From contig JARCMA010000227.1 of the NCBI GenBank assembly GCA_030248405.1, positions 1 to 36,077 of the forward strand: a stretch of 36,077 nt of DNA, given 5' to 3'. Both the position numbers and the translations under genes were made by a program. Shown in pieces: positions 4,719 through 12,594 of the stretch; the first letter of the stretch is position 1, and each line of letters starts with the position of its first letter. The notes below the pieces were generated by a model. It did not search any database, was not told where the DNA came from, and saw only the letters and a program-made list of their open reading frames with translations. Source of the stretch: Microcoleus sp. MP8IB2.171. GTDB taxonomy: Bacteria; Cyanobacteriota; Cyanobacteriia; Cyanobacteriales; Microcoleaceae.

Positions 4719-4828
4719 GGAGATTATTGTACAAGCTGATTGACACAGATATTATTGTCAATAATTTTAAGATTGACAATATCACCACAGCTTGCGGGTA
4801 TTGGTATTGTAGTATGTTGTTTGAGGAT

Positions 4829-4901
<73 letters not shown>

Positions 4902-5114: not shown

Positions 5115-5320
5115 AAATTTATTGTAAATTTAATTTAAGGGCGATCGCTCAACCGCATTTATAGCCTCGATCAAAAAGATGAGGTATTCACCAATGAATT
5201 AACAATTCCTCAATCCCCCAATCAAAAATCAACAATCAAAAATGTCAAATTCTACCTCTTTATGAGAACAGCTATATATTGACTTAGGAATTAAGTCTTC
5301 TATCTTCTGCCTTTAAAAAT

Positions 5321-5391
5321 GGGTGATATAGGAATTGAACCTATCTGGTACTGGTTAAAAGCCTGGTGCATAACCGCTCTCCCAACCACCC
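5321..5391 (-). tRNA. tRNA-Lys (TTT)-like, degenerate D arm
   Basis: Acceptor GGGTGGT/ATCACCC pairs with one G-T; T arm intact; loop CTTTTAA; D stem not clearly formed; two anticodon-stem mismatches. Confidence 0.55.
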
Positions 5392-6770: not shown

Positions 6771-6941
6771 ATGGCCGAACAAGATGAAGCTTCCAAAACC
6801 ATAAAAGTCACAATGCCCAACCGAATCCATCAAAAGCTCAAGAAGCTGTCTGACGAGTCAGGAATATCCATGTCTAAACTGATGCTCCTGGCAACTATCA
6901 AGGAATATAAGCTCATTGATGATAAAGATACCACCGAATAA
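6771..6941 (+). CDS. Small ribbon-helix-helix-like protein (56 aa)
   Basis: MAEQDEASKTIKVTMPNRIHQKLKKLSDESGISMSKLMLLATIKEYKLIDDKDTTE; absent from the supplied ORF list (below length cutoff). Confidence 0.7.
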   Translation: MAEQDEASKTIKVTMPNRIHQKLKKLSDESGISMSKLMLLATIKEYKLIDDKDTTE

Positions 6942-7243: not shown

Positions 7244-7658
7244 GGTTCAACCCGTGCAAGGGCGTAAAGCATTGATTTGAGTCGGTTAACTGCCGAGTAT
7301 GTATGCTTTAACTGTCAGAGTACGGGTTGAAACTCGTCGCTTTTGAATCACGAATGGAGAGGACGGGACTCGAACCCGCATCGATCGACAGCAGCTTTCA
7401 GGAAACGCGCTTCCTTACTGCCCGCAAGCAGACGGGAACTGCCCCCATCTCGGACTGTTAATTCCTTTCAGTGCCTCTGCAACCCGCTGCCAGTTTGCGG
7501 TTTCAGGGAACGTCGCGAAGCAACTTTTTACCCTACTCAACAAACGCGATCGTCCTTTTGAGAGCCGCTTTACCTAGTTTTTACGGTGCCATTCCAATTA
7601 GGCGACCTCCCCAAATTTCCTCCTATTGCTAATTAGGTGGAAATAAATAAATGCAAGA

Positions 7659-7846: not shown

Positions 7847-7931
7847 GGAAGATGAAGGAATCGAACCCTTACAGGTGTTACCTGTACCCTTGTTTTCAAG
7901 ACAAGTTGCGAACCATTTAGCGGCATCTTCC
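7847..7931 (-). tRNA. tRNA-Ser (TGA)
   Basis: Acceptor GGAAGAT/ATCTTCC; loop CTTGAAA; long variable arm; T arm AAGGG TTCGATT CCTT. Confidence 0.88.
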
Positions 7932-7976
7932 ATGATGTAAAATATCCATGATTCCTATGGCTAAAACATAGGAAAT

Positions 7977-8047
7977 CCACCGGGGAGGTACTGCCCCTCC
8001 TACCTCTGCGTTATCAGCACAGATCCTCGCTTCTCGGATTCCGGTGG
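7977..8047 (-). tRNA. tRNA-Ile (GAT)-like, atypical T-loop
   Basis: CCACCGG/CCGGTGG acceptor, ATCC/GGAT D stem, CTGTG CTGATAA CGCAG anticodon arm, GGAGG GGCAGTA CCTCC T arm (no TTCRANT). Confidence 0.55.
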
Positions 8048-8068
8048 TGAACAAATTCCTGCCACATC

Positions 8069-8121
8069 GCACCGATCATTGTAGGGACACAGCACTGCTG
8101 TGTCCCTACAATGATCGGTGC
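8069..8121. repeat. Perfect 53-bp palindrome (26-bp arms, 1-nt centre)
   Basis: GCACCGATCATTGTAGGGACACAGCA-C-TGCTGTGTCCCTACAATGATCGGTGC. Confidence 0.95.
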
Positions 8122-8145
8122 AATCAACCGGATTTGAAATTAAAA

Positions 8146-8227
8146 GGAAGATGAAGGAATCGAACCTTTACAGTTGCCTGTACCCTGGTTTTCGAGGCCA
8201 GTTGCCAACCGTTTAGCGGCATCTTCC
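8146..8227 (-). tRNA. tRNA-Ser (CGA)
   Basis: Acceptor GGAAGAT/ATCTTCC; CTGGC CTCGAAA ACCAG; long variable arm. Confidence 0.88.
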
Positions 8228-8230
8228 AAG

Positions 8231-8305
8231 GGTGCCTGACGGGACTCGAACCCCCTATTACTGGTTCCACAAACCAGCGCCGCTACCAGTTTGGCTTCAG
8301 ACACC
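8231..8305 (-). tRNA. tRNA-His (GTG)
   Basis: 8-bp acceptor GGTGTCTG/CAGGCACC (G-1:C73); CTGGT TTGTGGA ACCAG. Confidence 0.88.
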
Positions 8306-8309
8306 AGAT

Positions 8310-8403
8310 GGAATCAAGGAGAATCGTAGGCGAAGCCTTCCCGAAGGGTACTCCTAACCTCTTGCGTGCAAAGCAAGCGCTCTACCAATTGAGCTATGAC
8401 CCC
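8310..8403 (-). tRNA. tRNA-Ala (TGC) with ~23-nt insertion in the T-loop
   Basis: GGGGTCA/TGATTCC acceptor with G3:U70, CTTGC TTTGCAC GCAAG, T stem AGGAG/CTCCT separated by 29 nt instead of 7. Confidence 0.8.
8327..8349. mobile_element. Small dispersed repeat-like palindrome inside the tRNA-Ala(TGC) T-loop
   Basis: taggcgaagccttcccgaagggt: AGGC/GCCT and CCTT/AAGG self-complementary segments; resembles cyanobacterial SDR sequences from memory. Confidence 0.65.
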
Positions 8404-8408
8404 TTTTG

Positions 8409-8485
8409 TGGTGGATGCTGGTCGGACTCGAACCGACATTTTCCTAGTTGCGAACTAAGTGCTTTTCCGATTAAGCTACAGACCC
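8409..8485 (-). tRNA. tRNA-Ala (CGC), encoded CCA, bulged acceptor stem
   Basis: GGGT-CTG/CAG-C-ATCC pairs with one bulged C; CTTAG TTCGCAA CTAGG; ACCA encoded; G3:U70. Confidence 0.75.
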
Positions 8486-8490
8486 AATAT

Positions 8491-8567
8491 TGGTGGATTG
8501 CGGTCGGATTTGAACCGACATCTTTCTAGCAGCCAGCTAGATGCTTTTCCAGTTAAGCTACGAACCC
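8491..8567 (-). tRNA. tRNA-Ala (GGC), encoded CCA, bulged acceptor stem
   Basis: GGGTT-CG/CG-C-AATCC pairs with one bulged C; TCTAG CTGGCTG CTAGA; ACCA encoded; G3:U70. Confidence 0.75.
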
Positions 8568-8574
8568 ATTCAGT

Positions 8575-8647
8575 AGGAGTGGTAGGACTTGAACCCACAA
8601 CATTCGAGGTAGAAGCTCGACACTCTATCCAGTTGAGTTACACTCCC
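8575..8647 (-). tRNA. tRNA-Arg (TCT)
   Basis: TCGAG CTTCTAC CTCGA; GTGGG TTCAAGT CCTAC; A73. Confidence 0.88.
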
Positions 8648-8696
8648 GTATTTTTTGTTGATTTGCGATATTAATAGGACTAACGCACGGGTGGCC

Positions 8697-8762
8697 AGAA
8701 ACCGGGTTTTTTGCGAAAATACTTCGTTTTTACTCGCAAATTCGGTGAAAAACCCGGTTTCT
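8697..8762. repeat. AGAAACCGGGTTTTTT...AAAAACCCGGTTTCT hairpin repeat, copy 1
   Basis: Inverted terminal arms; same family as copies 2-5. Confidence 0.9.
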
Positions 8763-8843
8763 TCGATCCAATACGTAAGTTTTGCAATATAAAAAATTAA
8801 CCATTCAATGGAATCAACCTCCTTAAATTAAAGTAAAAACAAC

Positions 8844-8915
8844 GAGAGTGGCAGGACTCGAACCCACAACATCCGCGTCCGAAGCGCGGCGCTCTATCCA
8901 TTGAGCTACACTCCC
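8844..8915 (-). tRNA. tRNA-Arg (TCG)
   Basis: CCGCG CTTCGGA CGCGG; 72 nt canonical cloverleaf. Confidence 0.9.
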
Positions 8916-8978
8916 CTAAATTGGTAGTCCTGACAGGATATTACCCCGCTCTTGCTTGTAGCAAACAGGACTCCAAAA

Positions 8979-9049
8979 GCGGATGATGGGACTCCAACCC
9001 ATGCGCTGAGAATGGCACGCTCTGATGCTAGCTTTTACATCACACCCGC
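8979..9049 (-). tRNA. tRNA-Gly (GCC), T-loop variant
   Basis: GCGGGTG/CATCCGC; loop GTGCCAT; U73; T-loop TTGGAGT lacks C56; weak anticodon stem. Confidence 0.65.
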
Positions 9050-9108
9050 AAACAAATTTGATATTTCAGCTTACACAAAACTCTCAATTATCAACAGTTA
9101 TAAAACCT

Positions 9109-9187
9109 ATCAACTATCAACTGTCAACTATCAACTGTCAACTATCAACTATCAACTGTCAACTGTCAACTGCCAACTGTCAACTGT
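9109..9187. repeat. Heptamer tandem repeat (TCAACTR)n
   Basis: About 11 consecutive TCAACTA/TCAACTG units with minor variants. Confidence 0.93.
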
Positions 9188-9199
9188 TTAATTAGCCAA

Positions 9200-9269
9200 G
9201 CGGATAACGAGGCTCGAACTCGTGCCTAGAGTTTGGAAGACTCGAATGCTACCGTTACACTATATCCGC
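9200..9269 (-). tRNA. tRNA-Gly (TCC)
   Basis: GCGGATA/TATCCGC; loop CTTCCAA; ACGAG TTCGAGC CTCGT; U73. Confidence 0.9.
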
Positions 9270-9313
9270 AATTAGTTTAGCGATTTTATCTGTTTAACCT
9301 CAACATACAGCCT

Positions 9314-9757
9314 TTACAAAATTGTCAAGTAAGTTTGCGTTGGACTGATGGGTAAAGTTACTAACCGCTGATTTTTCAAATCTAATTCAATTCCCAGAGC
9401 TTCCAGAGGAATCACGCCTAATAAAGGATTCATACCTCCCGGCAATTCCAAACACTCAAACGTACCTTCGCGTCCTACCAAATAAATTTTAGCATCCTGA
9501 AAAATTCTGGCTTTGCTAATGCCATTTGCCGTCTCTACATCCACTTCTTTGAGCAATTCTAAACCAAGTTGAGCAATGATACTTGCAGGTAAGCACAATG
9601 TTGTTGCACCTGTATCAACTAGCACGTTATTTAGAGTGACTGAACGGATTTGGTCGGGAGGCATAAATCCTCGGGCTGCAACATTCTGATCGGCGCGGTT
9701 AGTCACGGTGAGTGTGGTAATAATTTTTCCCATTGAGGTGTTGTCAGTTGCTAGCAT
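9314..9757 (-). CDS. Retropepsin-like (clan AA) aspartic protease family protein
   Basis: 147 aa with NVLVDTGATTLCLP active-site motif and LLGVIPLEALGIELDLKNQRL C-terminal motif. Confidence 0.85.
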   Translation of the reverse strand: MLATDNTSMGKIITTLTVTNRADQNVAARGFMPPDQIRSVTLNNVLVDTGATTLCLPASIIAQLGLELLKEVDVETANGISKARIFQDAKIYLVGREGTFECLELPGGMNPLLGVIPLEALGIELDLKNQRLVTLPISPTQTYLTIL

Positions 9758-9891
9758 AGTTTAACCTTGAACTACTCTACCTCAATTATGGCAAGTTTTT
9801 GGGAAACTGTTTTGTTGCAGCAAAACGACAACTGCAAATTTGGGAAGGTGGCGATCGCAATTCTGCCTAAAGAGCGATCGTATTTTCCCAA

Positions 9892-9962
9892 GCAGGTGGC
9901 GAGAGTTGAACTCGCAAGAAAGCTTTACAAGAGCCTCATGTTGCCAATTACATCACACCTGC
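9892..9962 (-). tRNA. tRNA-Thr (TGT)
   Basis: GCAGGTG/CACCTGC; AGGCT CTTGTAA AGCTT; GCGAG TTCAACT CTCGC. Confidence 0.9.
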
Positions 9963-9967
9963 ATTTT

Positions 9968-10046
9968 TGGTGGCGGGGGCAGGAGTTGAACCTGCTATTA
10001 AGAGGCTTATGAGACCTCCAAGCCTACCCAGGCTACGTCACCCGCA
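9968..10046 (-). tRNA. tRNA-Met (CAT), initiator-like, encoded CCA
   Basis: GAGGT CTCATAA GCCTC anticodon arm; GCAGG TTCAACT CCTGC; 3' CCACCA; irregular acceptor base and D stem. Confidence 0.7.
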
Positions 10047-10058
10047 ATGTCACCAAAT

Positions 10059-10131
10059 GCCCCTGGCTGGATTTGAACCAGCAACCTTCTCGTTCTAAGC
10101 GAGACACCTCTTCCAATTGGGCTACAGGGGC
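10059..10131 (-). tRNA. tRNA with TAG (Leu) anticodon and short variable loop
   Basis: GCCCCTG/CAGGGGC; TCTCG CTTAGAA CGAGA; variable loop AGGTT (5 nt); A73. Confidence 0.82.
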
Positions 10132-10180
10132 AATTTTGTTTAGTTAACCTAACATCTTGAACAATTCTCAACAAGCTTTG

Positions 10181-10246
10181 AGAAACCGGGTTTCTGACAA
10201 AAGATATCGGGTTTTATGCAAAGTATTTGCCAGAAACCCGGTTTCT
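10181..10246. repeat. AGAAACCGGGTTT hairpin repeat, copy 2
   Basis: AGAAACCGGGTTTCTG...CAGAAACCCGGTTTCT. Confidence 0.88.
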
Positions 10247-10295
10247 GCCACAGGTGCAATATCTCAGGTTAAGAGGACTTATGCGCTCAGACTAA

Positions 10296-10360
10296 AGAAA
10301 CCGGGTTTTTATCTAATCTGTGGGTTAGTGCGAAAATTTTTCGTAAAAAACCCGGTTTCT
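10296..10360. repeat. AGAAACCGGGTTTTT hairpin repeat, copy 3
   Basis: AGAAACCGGGTTTTT...AAAAAACCCGGTTTCT. Confidence 0.9.
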
Positions 10361-10402
10361 GACCCCATATATAAGTCCCTCCAATATTTATGAAAAATTC
10401 AT

Positions 10403-10475
10403 GCTCCCGACAGGATTTGAACCTGTAGAAAAATAAGTTCTCGACCTAGCGCGTCTGCCGTTTCGCCACGAGAGC
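10403..10475 (-). tRNA. tRNA-Leu (GAG), shortened variable arm
   Basis: GCTCTCG/CGGGAGC; Leu-like D arm GGCGAAACGGCAGACGCG; CTAGG TCGAGAA CTTAT; 6-nt variable loop; A73. Confidence 0.78.
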
Positions 10476-10504
10476 AAATAACAGAAATTGGCGATTAGCC
10501 AAGT

Positions 10505-10577
10505 ACCCCTGACAGGATTTGAACCTGCAAAACACCGATTCTGATTCGATGATGTTTTCCAATTACATCACAGGGGT
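10505..10577 (-). tRNA. tRNA with CAG (Leu) anticodon and short variable loop
   Basis: ACCCCTG/CAGGGGT; ATGT/ACAT D stem; ATCGA ATCAGAA TCGGT; variable loop GTTTT; A73. Confidence 0.75.
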
Positions 10578-10582
10578 AAAGT

Positions 10583-10655
10583 CGGGATAGCAGGATTTGA
10601 ACCTGCAACCTTCGGCTCCCAAAGCCGCCGCGCTACCAAGTTGCGCCACATCCCG
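10583..10655 (-). tRNA. tRNA-Pro (TGG)
   Basis: CGGGATG/TATCCCG; CGGC TTTGGGA GCCG; A73. Confidence 0.9.
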
Positions 10656-10660
10656 TTCAT

Positions 10661-10741
10661 GCTCCCGGTGAGACTCGAACTCACAATCTAAAATAGAACA
10701 GATTTTAAGTCTGCCGCGTCTGCCAATTCCGCCACAAGAGC
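10661..10741 (-). tRNA. tRNA-Leu (TAA), class II
   Basis: GTGGCGGAATTGGCAGACGCG D arm; GCAGA CTTAAAA TCTGT; long variable arm; A73. Confidence 0.9.
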
Positions 10742-10764
10742 AAGTAAAAACTTAGTTAAAAAAT

Positions 10765-10841
10765 TGGTACTCCTGACTGGATTTGAACCAGTAACACACA
10801 AGGTTTGAGCTTGCCGCCTCTGCCAATTGGGCTACAGGAGC
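10765..10841 (-). tRNA. tRNA with CAA (Leu) anticodon, short variable loop, encoded CCA
   Basis: GCTCCTG/CAGGAGT; GCAAG CTCAAAC CTTGT; variable loop GTGTT; ACCA encoded. Confidence 0.8.
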
Positions 10842-10872
10842 ATCATCATTACTGCTGTTAGAAAAGCAGAAC

Positions 10873-10945
10873 TCGGAAGGCAGGGTTTGAACCTGCATTG
10901 TTCCGCTTTCAAAGAGCGGTGCCATGCCAATTAGGCGACTTCCGA
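10873..10945 (-). tRNA. tRNA-Gln (TTG)
   Basis: TCGGAAG/CTTCCGA; CCGCT CTTTGAA AGCGG; G73. Confidence 0.9.
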
Positions 10946-10954
10946 ATAATTGAA

Positions 10955-11027
10955 TGCCGGGGTAGGCTTTGAACCTACAAACTGATGCTTCAGAGGCATC
11001 CGACTTTGCCAATTTGTCCACCCGGCA
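10955..11027 (-). tRNA. tRNA-Gln (CTG)
   Basis: TGCCGGG/CCCGGCA; GATGC CTCTGAA GCATC. Confidence 0.9.
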
Positions 11028-11058
11028 ATTTAAACAGGAATTGCACATTTCTAACCAA

Positions 11059-11124
11059 AGAAACCGGGTTTTTTACCTAATCTACGGACTACAGCGAAGA
11101 ATTTTCGTAAAAAACCCGGTTTCT
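11059..11124. repeat. AGAAACCGGGTTTTTT hairpin repeat, copy 4
   Basis: AGAAACCGGGTTTTTTAC...GTAAAAAACCCGGTTTCT. Confidence 0.9.
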
Positions 11125-11158
11125 GGCCACCCGTGCGTAATTCCTATAAAAAAATGGC

Positions 11159-11229
11159 TGCCTCAGTAGGACTCGAACCTACAACCATCACGTTAACAGC
11201 GTGCAGCTCTACCATTGAGCTATGAGGCA
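11159..11229 (-). tRNA. tRNA-Asn (GTT)
   Basis: TGCCTCA/TGAGGCA; loop CTGTTAA; G73. Confidence 0.9.
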
Positions 11230-11236
11230 ACGCAAT

Positions 11237-11308
11237 CCCCCAAGTCAGTGTCGAACTGACGGCCTCTTGTTCTTCACACAAGCGCTCTACCAACTGAGCT
11301 ATCGGGGG
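11237..11308 (-). tRNA. tRNA-Phe (GAA)
   Basis: CCCCCGA/TTGGGGG; CTTGT GTGAAGA ACAAG; A73. Confidence 0.9.
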
Positions 11309-11313
11309 AAAAC

Positions 11314-11399
11314 GGAGAAGGAGGGATTTGAACCCTCGACGGTTGTTAAGCCGCTCTTTCTTAGCAGGAAAGCGCCATAAGCCTCTCGGCCACCTCTCC
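11314..11399 (-). tRNA. tRNA-Ser (GCT)
   Basis: GGAGAGG/CTTCTCC; CTTTC CTGCTAA GAAAG; long variable arm; G73. Confidence 0.92.
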
Positions 11400-11408
11400 T
11401 CAATGAGC

Positions 11409-11482
11409 GAGAACGGAGGGATTTGAACCCTCAAATTTTCAGTTGTGCAAACTGAATTGTTGTCCAGTTACAACACATTCTC
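11409..11482 (-). tRNA. tRNA with GCA (Cys) anticodon, G73
   Basis: GAGAATG/CGTTCTC; TCAGT TTGCACA ACTGA; GAGGG TTCAAAT CCCTC. Confidence 0.75.
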
Positions 11483-11517
11483 TCGATCGCAATTGCATAT
11501 TACATACAGTTGCAAAT

Positions 11518-11598
11518 GGGTCGGGCTGGAATTGAACCAACAACGCTTTAAGCTACTGTTTTACAGACAGCTACCCACACCAATAGGAGGGCCAACCC
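11518..11598 (-). tRNA. tRNA-Tyr (GTA)
   Basis: GGGTTGG/CCGACCC; CTGT CTGTAAA ACAG; class II variable arm; A73. Confidence 0.88.
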
Positions 11599-11611
11599 AA
11601 TATTGAAAATT

Positions 11612-11686
11612 TGGTAGGTCGCCGAGGAATTGAACCTCGATCCATCCGCTTAAAAGGCGGCTGCAAAACCATTCTGCCAACGACCC
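11612..11686 (-). tRNA. tRNA-Lys (TTT), encoded CCA
   Basis: GGGTCGT/GCGACCT; GCCGC CTTTTAA GCGGA; ACCA encoded. Confidence 0.88.
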
Positions 11687-11692
11687 ACGCAA

Positions 11693-11766
11693 AGTGCTGA
11701 CGGGAGTTGAACCCGCAAATCACTTGGGTGAAAACCAAGCGGCTTAAACCATTTGCCTACAGCACT
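11693..11766 (-). tRNA. tRNA-Glu (TTC)
   Basis: AGTGCTG/CAGCACT; CTTGG TTTTCAC CCAAG. Confidence 0.88.
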
Positions 11767-11768
11767 AT

Positions 11769-11800
11769 TGATTTTAGATTTTAGATTTTAGATTTTAGAT
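11769..11800. repeat. Heptamer tandem repeat (ATTTTAG)n
   Basis: Four consecutive ATTTTAG units. Confidence 0.9.
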
Positions 11801-11860
11801 TGGGAATTTGCAATTTTTGATTGCGATTTTTGATTGCTCCTGCGAATCAGCAAAAACAGA

Positions 11861-11933
11861 GGTTAGGGCGGGAGTTGAACCCGCGAAATTCGGTTTTGCA
11901 GACCGACGCTTTGAGCCGCTCAGCCACCTAACC
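11861..11933 (-). tRNA. tRNA-Cys (GCA)
   Basis: GGTTAGG/CCTAACC; TCGGT CTGCAAA ACCGA; U73. Confidence 0.9.
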
Positions 11934-11937
11934 TGGG

Positions 11938-12008
11938 AGTCCCGACGAGGTTTGCACTCGCAATCTTCACCTTGAGAGGGTGACGGCTTGACTTTTGCCT
12001 GCGGGACT
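11938..12008 (-). tRNA. tRNA-Glu (CTC), T-loop variant
   Basis: AGTCCCG/CGGGACT; TCACC CTCTCAA GGTGA; T-loop TGCAAAC. Confidence 0.75.
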
Positions 12009-12013
12009 TTGAC

Positions 12014-12086
12014 GGGAGTAACGAGACTTGAACTCGCAACCTTTCGCTCGACAGGCGACTGCTCTAACCGGTTGAGCTATACCCCC
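12014..12086 (-). tRNA. tRNA-Asp (GTC)
   Basis: GGGGGTA/TACTCCC; loop CTGTCGA; G73; first intact gene of the array in the direction of transcription. Confidence 0.9.
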
Positions 12087-12136
12087 GTGATAATCAACAA
12101 TAAAACTCTTGCAAAAGTCCTTGTAATCAAATTTTC

Positions 12137-12425: not shown

Positions 12426-12455
12426 ATACTACATTACGTACTACAGAACTGTCAA
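12426..12455 (-). promoter_or_regulatory. Candidate sigma70-type promoter for the tRNA array
   Basis: Minus strand TTGACA-18 nt-TAGTAT (then AAATA), upstream of and oriented toward the array. Confidence 0.4.
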
Positions 12456-12594
12456 GGGGGTAATACAACTTTTTTTTAAATTGTTTTTTTTTCAATGGTG
12501 TCGATCGCCCCAACCAACACTCCCACTCCCCCGAACCCACGAAAAATCAGGACATTCGGCTGCTAAACTGGTGCTGTAGCGCGTGGTAAATCCG

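Follow-up and report, generated by a model that had tools for sequence, protein, structure and literature searches.

A 36,077 nt stretch of the Microcoleus sp. MP8IB2.171 genome (contig JARCMA010000227.1; this whole stretch is referred to as the window) carries a long run of tRNA genes on one strand, and the question it raises is whether these genes belong to the ordinary decoding set, are passive cargo, or form a specialized operon. ARAGORN and Rfam combined support 30 tRNA units, all on the minus strand, between 7847 and 12087 (Table 1). ARAGORN called 25 tRNAs in 8145–12087, every one on the minus strand, and the remainder (Glu-CTC, Tyr-GTA, Ala-TGC, Gly-GCC and Ser-TGA) were recovered by Rfam. 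Ser-CGA, Ser-TGA and Met were matched best by the tRNA-Sec model of Rfam, with scores that fall short of its own cut-off. With 30 closely spaced units in 4.2 kb on a single strand, the locus has the gene arrangement of an L-array. A preliminary description, made from the sequence letters, had counted 31 minus-strand tRNA or tRNA-like units; its anticodon readings agree for 30 of them, but the 31st, an "Ile GAT-like" unit, finds no support from ARAGORN, Rfam or the arrays of relatives. This unit is best explained by a decayed tRNA-Val TAC at 8922–8972, the only tRNA-like stretch besides the 30 units, which is without a D-arm in comparison with the intact Val-TAC of relatives. Beyond 7847 the array strand continues to a tRNA-like RNA of 258 nt and, farther off, to the units at 5320–5391 and 4828–4901. 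The 258-nt RNA lies just 3' of Ser-TGA, outside the interval (7847–12086) of the preliminary description, which took in the tRNA units and missed this element.

Table 1. Features of the tRNA array locus, in window coordinates.
Feature	Position	Strand	Basis
Array promoter: TTGTATTAC - TTGACA - 18 nt - TAGTAT; TGTAGTAT (TrcR operator sequence) over -10 hexamer	12426..12468	-	Sequence; operator from PMC10272220
tRNA-Asp GTC, first gene of array	12011..12087	-	ARAGORN; Rfam 64.7 bits
tRNA-Glu CTC	11937..12008	-	Rfam 49.3 bits; called by ARAGORN in relatives but not here
tRNA-Cys GCA	11859..11933	-	ARAGORN, Rfam
Low-complexity sequence in slot of relatives' Met-CAT and Trp-CCA	11767..11858	-	Comparison with relatives
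tRNA-Glu TTC 11692-11766; Lys TTT 11612-11686	11612..11766	-	ARAGORN, Rfam
tRNA-Tyr GTA, weak	11517..11598	-	Rfam 33.1 bits
Unit read as tRNA-Cys GCA ("second Cys")	11407..11482	-	ARAGORN; comparison with relatives
tRNA-Ser GCT 11313-11399; Phe GAA 11235-11309; Asn GTT 11155-11229	11155..11399	-	ARAGORN, Rfam
tRNA-Gln CTG 10954-11027; Gln TTG 10871-10946	10871..11027	-	ARAGORN, Rfam
tRNA-Leu CAA, short variable region, CCA encoded	10765..10841	-	ARAGORN; comparison with relatives
tRNA-Leu TAA, longer variable arm, 10659-10742; Pro TGG 10581-10655	10581..10742	-	ARAGORN
tRNA-Leu CAG 10503-10577; Leu GAG 10401-10476; short variable regions	10401..10577	-	ARAGORN; comparison with relatives
tRNA-Leu TAG (short variable region) 10057-10132; Met CAT 9968-10042; Thr TGT 9891-9962	9891..10132	-	ARAGORN
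Inserted ORF, retropepsin-like aspartyl protease family	9314..9757	-	Pfam PF13975 1.6e-7
tRNA-Gly TCC 9199-9269; short direct repeats ~9093-9192; degenerate tRNA-Gly GCC 8978-9049	8978..9269	-	ARAGORN; Rfam 31.6 bits (Gly GCC)
Remnant of tRNA-Val TAC, D-arm deleted	8922..8972	-	Comparison with intact Val-TAC of relatives
tRNA-Arg TCG 8843-8915; Arg TCT 8573-8647; Ala GGC 8495-8567; Ala CGC 8413-8485	8413..8915	-	ARAGORN, Rfam
tRNA-Ala TGC, ~26 nt repeat inserted in T loop	8309..8403	-	Sequence, Rfam
tRNA-His GTG 8230-8304; Ser CGA 8145-8227; Ser TGA 7847-7931	7847..8304	-	ARAGORN, Rfam
Structured RNA: tRNA acceptor stem (G3:U70, A73), D-arm, T-arm, hairpin for anticodon arm, ~185 nt multi-helix insert	7355..7612	-	Multi-genome alignment
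Lys-TTT-like tRNA (ARAGORN: Leu TAA, 37.9 bits); 9 further array loci have a related unit nearby	5320..5391	-	ARAGORN, Rfam
tRNA-Lys CTT, identical in 12 congeners, beyond array	4828..4901	-	ARAGORN; locus comparison

The array is supernumerary to the housekeeping tRNA set. Other contigs of the same genome carry 34 tRNA genes covering 17 amino acids, plus a tRNA-Asn gene interrupted by a group I intron (RF00028, 76.5 bits); this list was compiled from search hits, with scoring that covered part of the candidates. Housekeeping genes for Glu and Ile were not located among the search hits on other contigs, and an approximate Synechocystis-like Glu query had no match in the genome, a result that proves nothing. 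The preliminary description had named two outcomes that would overturn its reading, namely units that are mostly pseudogenes without a conserved array, or units that are the sole genomic copies. Neither was found: most units score well, the array is kept in relatives, and tRNA genes are present elsewhere in the genome.

The array promoter carries TGTAGTAT, which is the footprinted TrcR operator of the Anabaena trn operon and overlaps the -10 box there (PMC10272220). Of the 40 arrays compared, 35 have the octamer in the 700 bp upstream, nearly always preceded by TTGACA. A TrcR ortholog is encoded in the same genome, with a TrcR-type site upstream of its gene, and its residues L44 and A72 are in register with the Anabaena mutants (register counted by hand). 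The best 80 TrcR relatives, which are 77–99% identical, are spread across cyanobacteria; a search for TrcR in phages gave no match, and TrcR homologs are reported from two Nodularia phages (PMC10272220). Because the promoter combines TTGACA with an octamer kept upstream of so many arrays, and because the genome encodes TrcR, the array is probably repressed by TrcR and induced by translational stress.

As the preliminary description proposed, the Microcoleus array is a further member of the L-array class typified by Anabaena, with Asp-GTC in first place, a common gene order, the TrcR operator over the -10 box and separate housekeeping tRNAs. The long tRNA array (trn operon) on the delta plasmid of Anabaena sp. 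PCC 7120 is likewise a one-strand operon of supernumerary tRNAs, in whose scheme Asp-GTC, the leading gene here, is also named (PMC10272220). It comprises 26 units on a plasmid, whereas the Microcoleus array comprises 30 and is chromosomal; the latter also has the 258-nt RNA at its 3' end, which the comparison with Anabaena does not cover. Gene order is shared as well with plasmid arrays of Nostocales and Leptolyngbyales (Nostoc sp. C052, HK-01 and TCL26-01, Tolypothrix PCC 7712 and Kovacikia minuta), which have similar short-arm Leu tRNAs. The octamer is present in four of these five and was not found for HK-01. Unlike the Microcoleus array, three of the five are flanked by plasmid partition-type genes on one side and by an HNH gene on the opposite one, and the 258-nt RNA is missing from the named plasmid arrays.

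The best matches of the array outside Microcoleus are plasmids, yet within the genus its flanks are ordinary chromosomal genes common to congeners, and orthologous arrays occur in synteny in about 24 of 29 congeners. Because the flanks are conserved, inheritance in Microcoleus looks vertical, at a conserved chromosomal locus, and recent horizontal spread is therefore not demonstrated here. The same evidence bears on the idea that the array belongs to a prophage or a phage-derived block, which we regard as highly improbable. Clusters of tRNA genes do occur in phages and single array tRNAs match many of them, but among the phage matches listed the shared part is at most 4% of the array, and neither the chromosomal flanks nor the plasmid matches fit a phage origin.

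The gene list has nonetheless drifted. Trp-CCA and a second Met-CAT, which follow Cys in many relatives, are missing from this array, so that the earlier report of no Trp holds, and that of no Val is correct for intact genes. Two Cys units were also reported and both do read as GCA; the anticodon of the slot at 11407–11482 is GCG, GCA or ATA in other Microcoleus, however, and this is therefore not a conserved Cys tRNA. Gly-GCC and Tyr are weak, Ala-TGC is split by a repeat, and the described invasion of the array by repeats is real. DNA homologous to the inserted ORF is found at four related array loci. With Val, Trp and one Met lost and several units weak, the array may be partly decayed. Elsewhere in the window, a small ORF at 6771–6941 is RHH-like (E 0.012), evidence too weak for it to be taken as a plasmid-partition relic.

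These gene losses, the T-loop insertion, the repeats and the inserted ORF are what would be expected if the array were cargo, neutral or selfish, that persists by chance while it decays and whose tRNAs go unused. This seems improbable to us, as stems vary with pairing kept across the tRNA families, the operator octamer is retained upstream of most arrays, and a related Anabaena array is induced and aids survival according to work cited in PMC10272220. The Leu tRNAs illustrate the first point. Four of the five anticodons (CAA, CAG, GAG and TAG) are borne by tRNAs with short variable arms, the TAA arm being longer, and across array families the anticodon stems of these short-arm tRNAs vary widely while remaining paired; in Leu-CAA, 153 of 155 pairs are kept among 13 different stems. 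They pose a clean question about tRNA recognition by the leucyl-tRNA synthetase of bacteria.

The 258-nt RNA has the ends of a tRNA, with ~215 nt separating its D- and T-arms. Across 20 copies, 98.4% of 1140 cells are paired, and at 12 base pairs both partners have changed, where shuffles gave 3.7 (0/500) and sliding gave 1–5; RNAalifold recovers the same core helices. Single-sequence folding was not informative (z -0.54), so that the structure is shown only by cross-genome comparison. G3:U70 is present in 20 of 20 copies and A73 in 19 of 20, and the invariant G3:U70 suggests that the RNA accepts alanine. The element is kept while its flanks diverge, and across the sequences searched the outcome was bimodal, with model scores of 111–123 bits or nothing. 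Copies usually share the strand of the array and follow Ser-TGA on its 3' side, most of them at a distance of no more than 0.8 kb. Microcoleus vaginatus HSN003 is among the strains that have both the array and this RNA. The RNA is absent from about half of the array-bearing congeners and from all plasmid arrays examined; one genome (G279) has it without an array within ~9 kb, and it may have its own promoter. Searches of Rfam, phages and plasmids with the RNA gave no match, and it is apparently undescribed.

Several known RNA classes resemble this element in part. Like the group I introns of cyanobacterial tRNAs, one of which interrupts tRNA-Asn in this same genome, it places an insert of a few hundred nt within a tRNA gene, and its first 28 nt match the array tRNA-Gln. 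That it is an ordinary tRNA with an intron is still unlikely: RF00028 has no match to it up to E=10, although the model detects the Asn intron readily, and no uninterrupted version was found. In alignment A2 a CCGN/NCGG hairpin precedes the insert, no complementary anticodon-stem half follows it, and no exon sequence rebuilds a 5-bp anticodon stem with a 7-nt loop, leaving no spliceable anticodon arm. With tmRNA (RF00023) it shares the alanine-type acceptor stem, the T-arm and a long insert between D- and T-arm, and its stress-operon context would suit an additional tmRNA for the tagging of stalled proteins. This reading is more doubtful again, since the tmRNA covariance model matches just 15 T-arm positions (11.1 bits), the D-stem is paired, unlike that of tmRNA, a normal tmRNA is encoded elsewhere in the genome (G000:C651), and no tag frame is conserved, close to half of the copies having a TAG in the candidate frame (alignment A2, column 181). 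A tag peptide from the 42-aa ORF at 7415–7543 was also considered and rejected, as the ORF is not conserved among copies. YrlA and other tRNA-like Y RNAs join a tRNA-like domain to another folded domain, as the 258-nt RNA does, but RF02553 did not match it. All three identities are rejected by the Rfam search.

We return to the L-array model, which taken as a whole, with a TrcR-held stress operon and an accessory 3' RNA, we consider likely. The array would be an operon of supernumerary tRNA genes with one promoter upstream of Asp-GTC, kept off by TrcR through the operator overlapping the -10 box. Impaired translation, which lifts TrcR repression in Anabaena, would do the same in Microcoleus, and the long transcript would be cut into tRNAs that join the housekeeping pool. 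Long inherited at one chromosomal place, the array would have been losing genes and collecting repeats there. The 258-nt RNA, with its tRNA ends, would probably be cut out as a tRNA is; lacking a normal anticodon loop it could not decode, but it keeps the alanine identity signal, and it may play an accessory part in this stress response by mimicking a tRNA, either to accept alanine or to bind protein. More tentatively, we suggest from comparative sequence data that it could represent a novel family of structured RNAs with tRNA ends. Such an RNA, processed from the stress tRNA operon or made next to it, would carry alanine and act in the translation-stress response without decoding, for example in ribosome rescue or by trapping alanyl-tRNA synthetase, EF-Tu or a tRNA-repair protein.

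These results extend a stress system described only recently to a cyanobacterium that is widespread and forms mats and crusts, and they show that the gene list of the array can drift while its promoter and repressor site persist. More surprising is the 3' RNA, which is conserved and covarying, combines tRNA ends of the alanine type with a large folded insertion, and is absent from Rfam; it would bring a new sort of RNA into the response to translational stress.

ARAGORN predicted 25 tRNAs on the minus strand between 8145 and 12087, and a permissive Rfam scan brought the total to 30 units at 7847-12087. Of these, 27 score above the tRNA gathering score, and three (Ser-CGA, Ser-TGA and Met) match best to the tRNA-Sec model, below its cut-off. 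The preliminary description had counted 31 units; ARAGORN and Rfam bear out its anticodon readings and 30 of the units, and give no support for the 31st, an Ile-GAT-like unit. A Val-TAC relic lacking the D-arm lies between Gly-GCC and Arg-TCG, recognised beside the intact Val-TAC genes of relatives. In the slot preceding Ser-GCT, most Microcoleus have the anticodon GCG; some, the window among them, have GCA and others ATA, indicating that the meaning of this slot is unstable. At four compared loci (L024, L049, L050 and L173), ARAGORN detected units that would decode stop codons and are possibly suppressor tRNAs: three loci have an array unit with CTA, for UAG, and one has a unit with TTA, for UAA, lying beyond the array. 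Two of the three hairpin repeats with AGAAACCGGGTTTTTT ends are inverted copies (84%), and similar sequence occurs elsewhere in the same genome and in relatives.

Features of the array region and of the housekeeping tRNA-Asn locus
Feature	Position	Strand	Details
RHH-like ORF, 56 aa	6771-6941	+	Pfam RHH_3, E 0.012; near array 3' end
3' RNA	7355-7612	-	7-bp acceptor stem, D-arm, T-arm, A73; beyond the array limits of the preliminary description
Hairpin repeats with AGAAACCGGGTTTTTT ends	8671-8763, 10184-10364, 11058-11150		
Slot with drifting anticodon, before Ser-GCT	11407-11482		window reads second Cys
Group I intron in housekeeping tRNA-Asn	L210, contig G000:C315, ~9617-9990		RF00028, 76.5 bits

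The array was described as supernumerary, and this holds: on the other contigs ARAGORN predicted 34 tRNAs, which together represent 17 amino acids. No housekeeping Ile or Glu gene was identified on these contigs of the 90% complete assembly, in which candidates were scored in part. The housekeeping tRNA-Asn is present, split by a group I intron; matches to this intron and the 3' exon were seen in many congeners.

Across arrays, the Leu units (CAA, CAG, GAG and TAG) are 74-79 nt long with short variable regions, the exceptions being one 82-nt CAA and one 81-nt TAG. The Ser and Tyr units of the arrays measure at least 82 nt, as do the four housekeeping Leu genes detected in the window genome. 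In the short Leu units, the anticodon stems vary freely in sequence yet remain paired (153/155 cells in 13 stems for CAA, 144/145 in 11 for TAG, 79/80 in 11 for GAG, and 69/70 in 8 for CAG), which argues that these units are maintained as tRNAs. The discriminator base of the window's short Leu units is A, as expected for leucine tRNAs.

Assignment to the Anabaena-type class of long tRNA arrays is upheld by shared gene order and by the exact TrcR operator sequence in the promoter. BLAST detected plasmid arrays of similar gene order in Nostoc, Calothrix, Tolypothrix and Kovacikia. At the Anabaena trn promoter, the repressor TrcR binds TGTAGTAT, which overlaps the −10 box (PMC10272220). The window array promoter (TTGACA, 18 nt, TAGTAT) has the identical octamer overlapping TAGTAT. 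For 35 of 40 arrays, the 700 bp preceding the first detected tRNA contain the octamer, a count that takes in arrays with uncalled first genes. The TrcR ortholog of the window genome shares 97-99% identity with its counterparts in several Microcoleus strains, has an operator-like motif directly upstream of its gene and, by hand count, carries Leu at 44 and Ala at 72, the sites of Anabaena mutations. Induction of the Microcoleus array would follow by analogy with Anabaena. Three plasmid arrays have an HNH endonuclease gene immediately upstream of the promoter end (L024 5502-6023, L055 6845-7381, L057 5585-6121) and ParA-type genes at the opposite end.

In the complete or near-complete genomes among the 30 Microcoleus compared, the main chromosome-sized contig carries the array. 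Its recurrent neighbours are polysaccharide deacetylase and birA genes flanking the 5' end and a RibD_C/DHFR-like gene flanking the 3' end, each at about half or more of the compared genus array loci. Chromosomal location and recurrent flanks suggest that the array has been inherited at a single locus that repeatedly gained insertions and lost sequence.

The 3' RNA, of 258 nt, is a tRNA-ended RNA in which ~215 nt separate the D-arm from the T-arm: first a hairpin whose stem is CCGN/NCGG and whose loop is oversized, then a ~185-nt insert. It is very likely a real structured RNA. In a hand-drawn structure of 57 pairs, 98.4% of cells are paired across 20 copies, and 12 pairs have changed on both sides versus 3.7 in shuffles (0/500 reach 12), with a covariation score of 0.142 versus 0.095. 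Pairing falls to 37-55% in a slid-partner control, over which a structure drawn from the same sequences has an advantage. Unaided, RNAalifold recovered the same acceptor stem, D- and T-arms, hairpin and core helices of the insert; in its structure, 12 pairs have changed on both sides.

The acceptor stem has G3:U70 in 20/20 copies and A73 in 19/20. Together these form the alanine identity signal for AlaRS, and charging with alanine appears plausible. Decoding of codons is unlikely, as the anticodon loop lacks the normal form. By covariance model and by reading frame, the RNA is not a tmRNA. Nor is it a group I intron: Rfam gives no match, yet detects the one in tRNA-Asn of the same genome. Any stated function would be speculative.

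The 3' RNA was found in 11/30 Microcoleus genomes (94-99% identity to the window copy, with diverging flanks; two of these genomes were found by only one of the searches) and in nine further genomes from six other families (81-91%). A covariance model of its inner 102 nt scored 111-123 bits in 17 of the order's 293 genomes, with no other matches among them. Searches for a core motif gave no match in IMG/VR and, beyond the genus, a single 2-mismatch match in a 386-genome phylum sample. Searches with the insert gave no significant plasmid match and no phage match, and no Rfam family covers the RNA.

Most carriers have the 3' RNA downstream of Ser-TGA on the array strand, often at a distance of 0.1-0.8 kb, and it is probably part of the array operon. 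The gap is ~3.8 kb in G013 and ~1.5 kb in G108; in G094 and G071 the RNA directly precedes a Ser-TGA gene, with no full array close by, and in G279 no array occurs within ~9 kb. It is thus usually, not always, the array's last member. Its first 28 nt resemble the array tRNA-Gln, suggesting that it may have arisen from a gene of this type. Beside its full copy, G013 carries another, incomplete copy of the RNA's 5' end (L034 14002-14040; G013:C1:457951-458039). Several congeners (L060-L067, L042) have a TTTGCTATCxTATAG-like sequence, absent from the window, shortly before the RNA, which could be its own promoter. The apparently new part of this locus is the added 3' RNA, without which the array would belong to an already known kind.
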